Source: Oscillospiraceae bacterium
GTDB taxonomy: Bacteria > Bacillota > Clostridia > Oscillospirales > Oscillospiraceae
Assembly: GCA_022779345.1 (NCBI GenBank)
Contig: JALFTG010000023.1
Location: forward strand, 1 to 54,151
Direction of reading: 5' to 3'
DNA: 54,151 bases
This document shows, in pieces, positions 2,557-47,741 of this stretch. Position numbers and translations under genes: made by a program. The notes below the pieces were generated by a model. The model made no database searches and was not told the DNA's origin. It worked only from the letters and a program-made list of their open reading frames with translations. The number at the start of each line of letters is the position of its first letter. Within the stretch, counting starts at the first letter, position 1.

Positions 2557-2665
2557 AGGGGTCCCTCCTTTTCTTTGCTCTGGTGAATGCAGAGAACGGA
2601 CAACCAAAGGAGGCAGGTTACTGATCCCCCGCAGGGGACTCCCGGACTACCGGCCGGGATGTGTT
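2557..2665 (-). promoter_or_regulatory. probable yjdF (azaaromatic) riboswitch with anti-RBS
   Basis: In transcription order the leader has a hairpin CCCGG/CCGGG (2658-2641), a hairpin UCCCC/GGGGA (2638-2625), then CCUCCUUU (2613-2606), a hairpin CUCUG/CAGAG (2594-2578) and the RBS AAAGGAGG (2571-2564). CCUCCUUU is an exact complement of the RBS, so the RBS can be sequestered. This suggests translational control. Assignment to the yjdF class rests on this architecture plus the YjdF product; no covariance search was possible. Confidence 0.7.
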
Positions 2666-2690
2666 TTTATCTCTGCTGTGATGCATTTTG

Positions 2691-11922: not shown

Positions 11923-12482
11923 TGGCCGTTTCCGTTCAGCTGCCCATGACGAAAGAGGAGGCCGCCCGGCTCCGGGCCGGGGACAGCGTGCTCCTCACCG
12001 GTACGATCTACACCGCCCGGGACGCGGCCCACAAGCGCATTTATGAGATGATGCACGCCGGGGAGCCCCTCCCCTTCGATCTGGACGGCGCTTCTATTTA
12101 TTATGTAGGCCCCAGCCCTGCTCAGGCGGGGATGCCTGTGGGCTCCGCCGGTCCCACCACCAGCTCCCGGTGCGATAAATACACCCCGGAGATGCTGGAC
12201 GCCGGTCTGCGGGTCATGGTCGGTAAAGGCCGCCGGTCCGACGCCGTGAAAGAAGCGGTCGTCCGCAACGGGGCGGTCTACATGGCGTCCACCGGCGGCG
12301 CCGGCGCCATGCTGGCCCGGTGCATCAAGGAGGCGGAAGTCATCGCCTTCCCGGACCTGGGCACCGAGGCGGTGCGGAAGCTCACGGTTGAGAACTTCCC
12401 CGCCGTGGTGATCCTGGACACCGTGGGCGGCGACTACTACGAGACCGCCCGAAAAGCCTACCTCTCCTCTGTCATAAAATGA
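11922..12482 (+). CDS. fumarate hydratase class I, beta subunit
   Basis: A 186-residue beta chain (LRAGDSVLLTGTIYTARDAA, then YVGPSPAQAGMPVGSAGPTT, SSRCDKYTPEMLDAGLRVMV and YMASTGGAGAMLARCI), the usual C-terminal swivel domain that completes the fumarase active site. Start ATG 11922 shares its A with the alpha-subunit TGA and has AAAGGAGG upstream; a GTG one codon earlier is the alternative. Confidence 0.92.
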   Translation: MAVSVQLPMTKEEAARLRAGDSVLLTGTIYTARDAAHKRIYEMMHAGEPLPFDLDGASIYYVGPSPAQAGMPVGSAGPTTSSRCDKYTPEMLDAGLRVMVGKGRRSDAVKEAVVRNGAVYMASTGGAGAMLARCIKEAEVIAFPDLGTEAVRKLTVENFPAVVILDTVGGDYYETARKAYLSSVIK

Positions 12483-12493
12483 GCCTCGCAGAG

Positions 12494-12513
12494 TTTGTGC
12501 CCACAGGCACAAA
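12494..12513 (+). terminator. hairpin after fumarase operon
   Basis: Perfect 8-bp stem TTTGTGCC/GGCACAAA with CACA loop, 11 bases after the fumarase beta stop, followed by TTAATTT. A short U-poor tail makes termination uncertain; it may protect the transcript end. Confidence 0.45.
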
Positions 12514-12527
12514 TTAATTTCAATCTG

Positions 12528-12646
12528 TTTTTTCGGCAGCTTTGCCGTCGAAAAAACTCTTCCCGGCCAATGGAGTGTGCGAGTGCAGCGAGTGCGCGGA
12601 ATGGCCGCAACCTTCTCAAAAAAGTGGACAACCACTTTTTTGACTG
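12528..12646 (+). repeat. structured intergenic repeat, copy 1 (three hairpins)
   Basis: Order: hairpin A (12528-12556, six T paired with six A), then CCCGGCCAATGG, hairpin B bounded by GGCCA (12565-12569) and TGGCC (12602-12606), linker GCAACCTTCT, hairpin C (12617-12627 with 12632-12642, perfect 11 bp) and ACTG. The hairpin B core and linkers recur at 46423-46528 in the other copy, while hairpins A and C have different sequence but keep base pairing. It lies downstream of fumB in sense orientation. Hairpin C may also act as a bidirectional terminator. Confidence 0.7.
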
Positions 12647-12705
12647 TCATAAAATGACATATTCATCCCCCCTTGCGGATATACTGTCTCCAAGGGGGGA
12701 TTTTC

Positions 12706-42721: not shown

Positions 42722-42795
42722 TGGAGCGGGTAAAGGGAGTCGAACCCTCCTATCAACCTTGGGAAGGTTGCGTTCTACCGATGAACTATACCCGC
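42722..42795 (-). tRNA. tRNA-Gly (anticodon CCC)
   Basis: 74 bases including an encoded CCA. Acceptor GCGGGTA/TACCCGC with discriminator U; anticodon arm CAACC-TTCCCAA-GGTTG, giving anticodon CCC; T arm GAGGGTTCGACTCCC. Reads GGG codons. Promoter and terminator are both close, so it is an autonomous unit. Confidence 0.96.
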
Positions 42796-46422: not shown

Positions 46423-46528
46423 CAGTCATTTGAATCTGTCGGTTCAAATGAGAATTTGCGGCCATTCCATGCACGGGCTGAAGCCCGCACACGCCATTGG
46501 CCGGGCAGTGTTTTTTACAAAATCGTAA
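46423..46528 (-). repeat. structured intergenic repeat, copy 2
   Basis: Minus-strand order: hairpin A TTAC/GTAA (46528-46515), AAAAAACACTG, CCCGGCCAATGG, hairpin B bounded by GGCCA (46502-46498) and TGGCC (46464-46460) with inner GCGGGC/GCCCGT, linker GCAAATTCT, hairpin C CATTTGAA/TTCAAATG (46450-46427), then ACTG (46426-46423). Starts right after the dapL stop and ends at the glmM RBS. Confidence 0.7.
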
Positions 46529-46529
46529 T

Positions 46530-47741
46530 TTACAGCATTCTGGTAATTCTGCGGATGGCTTCTTTGGTATTTTCCGGATCGCCGAAGCCGGTGAGACGGA
46601 TATAGCCTTCGCCGCTGGGACCGAAGCCGGCGCCGGGGGTGGTGACCACATTGCCCTCCTGGAGCAGGCGGTCAAAGAAGTCCCAGGAGCCCATGCCGTC
46701 CGGCGTGGCGGCCCAGACATAGGGGGAGTTCACGCCGCCGTACACCGTCAGGCCCGCTTTGGCCAGGCCCTCCCGGATGATGGCCGCATTGTTCAGGTAG
46801 TAGTCGATGGTCTCCCGCACTTCCTGCTGGCCCTCGGGGGTATAGATGGCCTCGGCACCCCGCTGGATCATGTAGGGGCAGCCGTTGTACTTGGTGGACT
46901 GGCGGCGCAGCCACAGCTCAGCCAGGGACACGCCGTTCACCTTCAGTTCTTTGGGGATGATGGTGTAGGCGCAGCGGGTGCCGGTGAAGCCGGCGGTCTT
47001 GGAATAGCTGCGGAACTCAATGGCGCAGGTCCGGGCGCCGGGCACTTCATAGATGCTGTGAGGAATTTCCGGGTCCCGGATGAAGGCCTCATAGGCGGAG
47101 TCGTACAGGATCACGCTGCCGTGCTCATTGGCATAGTCCACCCACAGCTTCAGCTGGTCTTTGGTGGCGGCCATGCCGGTGGGGTTGTTGGGGAAGCACA
47201 GATAGATCAGATCCGGCACCCGCTCCGGCAGGGCCGGGACAAACCCGTTTTCCGCCGTGCAGGGCATATAGACGATGTTGGTCCACTTCTCCCCGTCATA
47301 CTCCCCGGCCCGGCCGGCCATGGCGTTGGCGTCCACATACACCGGGTACACCGGGTCGCACACCGCCACCACATTGTTGACGGAGAAGATGTCCCCAATG
47401 TTCCCGCAGTCGCTTTTGGCGCCGTCGGACACGAAGATCTCCTCCCGGCTCATGGTCACACCCCGGGCGGCATAGTCGTGCTGCACAATGGCGTCCCGGA
47501 GGAAGTCATAGCCCTCATAGGGGCCGTAGCCCATGAAGGTATCGGCGCTGCCCATCTCGTCCACGGCCTTGTGCATGGCCCGGATCACGGAGGGCGCCAG
47601 GGGGCGGGTCACATCGCCGATGCCCATTTTAATCAGCTTTTTATCGGGGTTTGCCGCCTGATAAGCCGCGGTGCGCCGGGCGATCTCGGCGAACAGGTAG
47701 CTGCCGGGGAGCTTCTGAAAATTCTGATTGATCTCTGCCAT
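46530..47741 (-). CDS. dapL: LL-diaminopimelate aminotransferase
   Basis: A 403-residue class I/II PLP aminotransferase making LL-DAP from tetrahydrodipicolinate in one step. [20 protein letters not shown] near 37, [17 protein letters not shown] near 105, [14 protein letters not shown] near 187 and the PLP-lysine motif [20 protein letters not shown] near 245. Length is typical. With dapF, upstream by 34 bases, it forms the lysine/peptidoglycan DAP branch. Confidence 0.97.

Follow-up and report, generated by a model that had tools for sequence, protein, structure and literature searches.

IS1272, an insertion sequence of the IS1182 family, inserts at stem-loops, some of which are confirmed transcription terminators, and its targets have no consensus in the primary sequence. 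Upon its insertion, the target stem-loop is reported to be deleted or replaced and no target duplication to be formed (PMC4923244, PMC5678879). In the Bacillus cereus group, the repeat bcr1 is about 150-170 bp long; bcr1 to bcr3 have been called MITE-like and, within the set bcr1-bcr18, some families display a conserved RNA structure and about half of the copies are transcribed (PMC3446304, PMC2267715). REPs are 20-40 bp long and carry a conserved tag sequence (PMC3733652).

The repeat analyzed here was encountered in a window of 54,151 nt (the term designates the whole stretch of DNA that was analyzed) from an Oscillospiraceae bacterium. The full element measures about 165 nt and contains four hairpins. 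It is widespread in gut Oscillospirales, yet it is absent from Rfam, which returned no family at the element, neither at the gathering score nor at E values up to 10. Furthermore, no earlier description of the repeat was found in literature searches (open-licence papers). We consider it probable that this repeat is a non-autonomous, MITE-like, IS1182-type element whose multi-hairpin, RNA-like fold is conserved.

From 5' to 3', the unit is made up of a conserved motif, GC(C/T)TCGCAGA(A/G)TT, followed by hairpin H1, a linker, the long hairpin A, whose outer arms are T-rich and A-rich, a two-stem core, another linker and hairpin C (Table 1). Copy 1 is the complete copy of the window. It is longer than the limits assigned to it in the preliminary description (12528-12646) and includes hairpin H1, which had been overlooked.

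Table 1. Positions of the repeat, of its parts and of other RNA features in the window. Percentages are those of paired cells in the alignment.
Feature	Position	Strand	Support
Complete copy 1	12482..12644	+	covariance model R1 built without copy 1: 138.6 bits, E=3.5e-35
Copy 2, 5'-truncated	46425..46517 (5' limit approximate)	-	R1 74 bits, E=1.8e-17
Direct repeat TGTCATAAAATG, left copy, candidate target-site duplication	12470..12481		identical to 12645-12656
Direct repeat TGTCATAAAATG, right copy	12645..12656		identical to 12470-12481
Hairpin H1 (TTTGTGCC/GGCACAAA)	12494..12513	+	98.7% paired, 72 own copies
Hairpin A (GTTTTTTCGGCAGC/GCCGTCGAAAAAAC)	12527..12557	+	95.7% paired
Core	12564..12607	+	outer stem 96.3%, inner stem 98.8% paired
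Core outer stem, copy 1 (CGGCCA/TGGCCG)	12564-12569 / 12602-12607	+	
Core inner stem, copy 1 (GTGTGC/GTGCGC)	12575-12580 / 12592-12597	+	
Terminal hairpin C (TCAAAAAAGTGG/CCACTTTTTTGA)	12616..12643	+	97.5% paired
Core, copy 2	46459..46503	-	sequence and fold
Core outer stem, copy 2 (CGGCCA/TGGCCG)	46503-46498 / 46464-46459	-	
Hairpin C, copy 2 (TCATTTGAA/TTCAAATGA)	46426..46451	-	sequence and fold
Azaaromatic riboswitch (yjdF RNA, RF01764)	2580-2680	-	86.8 bits; upstream of a - strand gene
tRNA gene	42725-42795	-	Rfam RF00005, 63 bits

A covariance model, R1 (165 positions, 45 pairs), was built from eight copies of the repeat, the window copies being excluded. Since this model finds both window copies, the repeat in the window is not due to chance. 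Copy 2, which is located between the LL-diaminopimelate aminotransferase gene and glmM (genes identified by NCBIfam), has neither H1 nor the 5' arm of hairpin A; it starts in the 3' arm of that hairpin, and its R1 match (46425-46558) overextends into the upstream gene. In its core, the outer stem encloses an inner stem with a GGGC/GCCC tip. The motifs reported earlier as common to the two segments, CCCGGCCAATGG, GGAATGGCCGCAA, TTCT and TGACTG, are indeed present in both. The two flanking hairpins had also been described as paired in both copies: this is correct for hairpin C, whose sequence in one copy is unrelated to that in the other, and incorrect for hairpin A, as its 5' arm is missing from copy 2.

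Across 72 copies of the window's own genome, 97.1% of the stem cells were paired, a value which, like the percentages of Table 1, leans towards the model because the alignment was fitted to it. The same result for pairing and covariation was obtained with the eight-copy seed alignment, which had been made without structure. In the 72 copies, 31 of the 45 pairs were changed on both sides (all 8 pairs of H1 and all 10 pairs of hairpin C were changed in this way), and the covariation measures were reached by none of 500 shuffles, nor by slid controls. In addition, G-U cells were far more frequent than A-C cells, with 186 versus 0 in the inner core stem and 137 versus 26 in hairpin A. This excess indicates that the folded strand is the + strand as given; the complementary strand is not the folded one, since the G-U positions would be mismatches there. 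Together, the covariation and the strand-specific G-U pairs support the selection for RNA structure that had been proposed.

The preliminary description dealt with a two-copy repeat. In the genome from which the window comes (G000; 1.92 Mb, 188 contigs), a gapped core pattern recovered 8 and then 10 exact copies, both window copies included, and the whole-genome search with R1 found about 70 copies. Among the low-scoring R1 matches, some correspond to hairpin A, which is palindromic and was read on the opposite strand; a few others are fragments. Both further copies and pairing within them, on which the earlier reading had been staked, were thus found. Matches to R1 were present in all four genomes of the genus, in 131 of the 251 genomes of the family, covering 72 of 106 genera, and in 29 of 295 genomes of an order-wide sample with other families of the order. 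The named carriers are Oscillospiraceae and include Pseudoflavonifractor sp. 524-17 and the cultured Flavonifractor sp. An82 and Flavonifractor plautii ATCC 29863, in which the model had 16 and 5 matches, respectively. An exact DNA pattern of the core of the own species had 0 matches in the contig database, and a search of this database with a 5'-end pattern gave 120 stretches; the sequence material analyzed consists of the stretches around the elements.

Some variants were observed during these searches. In genome G143 (L380-L387), the R1 matches mostly belong to a different structured repeat, in which a hairpin around GAATTCCGCAGAATTC is followed by CGCACGTTCCCC(T)TTGGCA and which is apparently another repeat family. 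In G092 (L373-L378), G116 (L404-L406) and G090 (L410), the element is extended: it has more sequence on its 5' side and one further hairpin, GCGTGTCGAA...TTCGACACGC, at its 3' terminus. At L211:4726-5035 (-), beside a full element, H1 units recur about every 71 nt and may form a partial tandem array.

Target duplications were examined by aligning the two flanks, 5' and 3', of every own copy with each other, the flanks of different copies being used as control. Direct repeats scoring 14-32 were obtained for 19 of the 72 own copies, the 99.9th percentile of the control being 12. These repeats are 24 to 40 bp long, mostly about 30 bp, and nearly all of them are complete terminator-like hairpins; that of L116 (32 bp) is a non-hairpin repeat. 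Target duplications were detected around 22 further copies in other genera, F. plautii included, and an exact 29-bp hairpin repeat surrounds the element in G090. Overall, the duplications are 21-40 bp long as a rule, and none was seen in the remaining copies. For copy 1, the 12-bp direct repeat (self-flank score 12, p ~0.0014 against the flanks of other copies), whose left copy shares bases with the stop codon of the hydro-lyase/fumarate hydratase beta-subunit gene located upstream, is only suggestive as a target duplication.

In sister species, the same gene pairs were found without the element at several sites, and the positions mostly differ between species. Empty sites were identified in relatives for L128:4001, L116, L125, L131, L108:7240 and window copy 2; for the latter, the aminotransferase-glmM gap is about 25 nt in the sister genome G002 (L188). 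The median identity to the nearest relative was 91% for copies with duplications versus 85% for those without, as expected of recent insertions. The hairpin-sized direct repeats and the empty sites show that the element is mobile.

Both window copies lie in sense orientation right after a gene, as had been remarked, but this arrangement is not general, the next downstream gene being on the opposite strand for 43 of the 63 scorable copies. For 22 of these 43 own copies, the 3' end of the element is situated -1 to 5 nt from the stop codon of that gene; such small distances carry some error, the genes having been called by a codon-usage script. The stop-flush copies have no visible target duplication, and at several of their empty sites there is no hairpin. 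By analogy with IS1272, the target stem-loop may have been replaced when these copies were inserted. Generally, no T-run follows hairpin C; given this and the inconsistent sense orientation, the function as a 3'-end element that had been suggested is not supported.

The element ends with CAGCTTGTCGAAAA on the 5' side and with TTTTCGACAGACTC, which is part of terminal hairpin C, on the 3' side. When the duplications are taken as borders, the own recent copies start with (C)AGCTTGTCGAAAA and finish with TTTTCGACAGACTC. In recent copies, CAGCTTGTCGAAAA and GAGTCTGTCGAAAA, the reverse complement of the 3' end, constitute an imperfect inverted repeat, which is degenerate or absent in many other copies. 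Transposases of the IS1182 family (NF033551, E<=1e-60) were present in 42 of 401 genomes of the family, the transposase identity of the IS1182 loci resting on NF033551 scores above its cut-off. Ends of the form CAG[N]CTGTCGAAAAA, or close variants, were found in the IS1182 elements L349, L356, L344, L345 and L353. The ends of L349, L350, L356 and L346 read CAG[N]CTGTC(G/A)AAAAA, and these elements are flanked on both sides by complete terminator hairpin copies. Furthermore, several intact IS1182 elements have a subterminal hairpin of variable sequence which overlaps the end. As ends and hairpin flanks are alike, the ends and the target behaviour of the element are those of the IS1182 group. 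The element is short, contains no transposase gene and has about 70 copies, inverted repeats, target duplications and empty sites; its description as MITE-like thus stands on copy number, target-site duplications, empty sites and termini resembling IS1182 inverted repeats.

Genome by genome, the comparison of element ends with resident IS ends gave no clear match in G014; it was limited in G143 by the mostly different repeat, and the copies of G092 and G116 are of the extended architecture. An IS1182-type transposase is present in other carriers, for example G092 and G014. In the four draft genomes of the genus, no NF033551, PF05598 or PF01609 transposase was found, though the own copies look recent. 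IS elements are often lost from draft assemblies, so that this absence is no proof; the missing partner transposase may have been lost in this way, or the partner may be another enzyme. When 31 IS1182 loci were searched with R1, no credible match to the element interior was obtained; an origin by internal deletion of IS1182 is unsupported, since this interior is absent from those loci. An autonomous, ORF-bearing version of the element was not found either, and isolated 5' ends that were considered as such a version with an internal ORF are deletion derivatives.

In the MITE-like reading, an IS1182-family DDE transposase acting in trans would recognise the ends CAGCTTGTCGAAAA and TTTTCGACAGACTC and would insert the element at stem-loops, chiefly intrinsic terminators. 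Staggered cuts at both feet of the target stem-loop would then leave a copy of the whole hairpin on each side. The fold would be used as RNA. This reading is weakened by the lack of a transposase in the genus and of the interior in IS1182 loci, by the published IS1272 insertions, which delete the hairpin instead of duplicating it, and by the stop-flush copies, which show no duplication and for several of which the empty site has no hairpin. The inverted-repeat ends, common to IS1182 DNA transposons that show the same hairpin duplication, count against a SINE-like retroelement, whose folded + strand RNA would be copied in trans by a reverse transcriptase and integrated with duplication of the target; the RNA-like fold on one strand, the variable length of the duplications and the failure to find a DDE_Tnp_1 transposase in the genus would fit such an element, which we nevertheless regard as very unlikely. 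Being intergenic, palindromic and present in high copy number, the repeat could also be taken for a REP/BIME-like sequence spread by a RAYT (Y1 HUH) transposase. This REP-like alternative, already raised in the preliminary description, is extremely unlikely: the length of the element, about 165 nt, greatly exceeds that of a REP, its stem sequences are not conserved, and it has DDE-type inverted repeats at its ends and target duplications of 24-40 bp. Such duplications are generally not expected of HUH transposition.

The strong covariation and the strand-specific G-U pairs would equally suit a resident functional RNA (3'-UTR or intercistronic), selected at each locus and only occasionally mobile. 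In G001 and G002, where no copy pair exceeds 79% identity and no target duplication was detected, the stems are 95% and 93.5% paired, respectively; in L148/L167, one vertically inherited pair, 7 differences are compensated and 1 is broken. These sequence comparisons give hints of selection on resident copies. Such selection is unproven, because most same-site pairs look like independent insertions and because the compensatory changes may have accumulated before insertion, in active source copies that persisted for long. Moreover, most positions are not shared between species, empty sites occur, and the orientation relative to genes is mixed. Six shared sites had been taken as indicating post-insertion selection, and this was dropped for five of them (L102, L108, L135, L144 and L155 versus L177, L163, L181, L194 and L191), whose copies are no closer than random ones; this suggests that these five sites are insertion hotspots occupied independently in sister species. 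On the whole, a resident functional RNA appears rather improbable.

For the MITE-like IS1182-type element that we favour, the fold could have a role in transposition, protect the element against transcription or function as an RNA; IS1182 elements likewise have variable end hairpins. More tentatively, and with limited credence, the repeats might be regarded as order-wide mobile structured RNAs, whose + strand fold would itself be required for mobility or would be of benefit to the host and which would be spread by an IS1182-type enzyme, or by an unknown one in view of the missing transposase, duplicating whole terminators. Insertion next to or within terminators can change the wiring of operon junctions and 3' ends at dozens of places in a genome. 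The repeat combines the traits of a transposon passenger with a covarying, RNA-like fold, two things usually kept apart, and it offers a concrete starting point for asking why this fold has been conserved.

Like REP/BIME sequences, the present repeat is an intergenic palindromic repeat found at gene ends, but it is about 165 nt long, with four hairpins and variable stem sequence. It shares with bcr1-bcr18 the character of a short, intergenic, high-copy repeat, and differs from them by its sequence and host group, its order-wide occurrence and its ends and target duplications, which point to IS1182. As in bacterial MITEs, the element is short, non-coding and of high copy number, with inverted-repeat ends and target duplications; in contrast to them, it possesses a covarying four-hairpin interior across many genera and unusually long, hairpin-sized duplications. 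Finally, IS1272/TnSha1 of Staphylococcus and the IS elements that have the ends of the repeat share a transposase family. IS1272/TnSha1 encodes its own transposase, whereas the repeat has none. Unlike IS1272, the recent repeat copies and intact Oscillospiraceae IS1182 elements sit between two complete hairpin copies; some IS1182 elements thus seem to duplicate the whole hairpin, where IS1272 replaces it.
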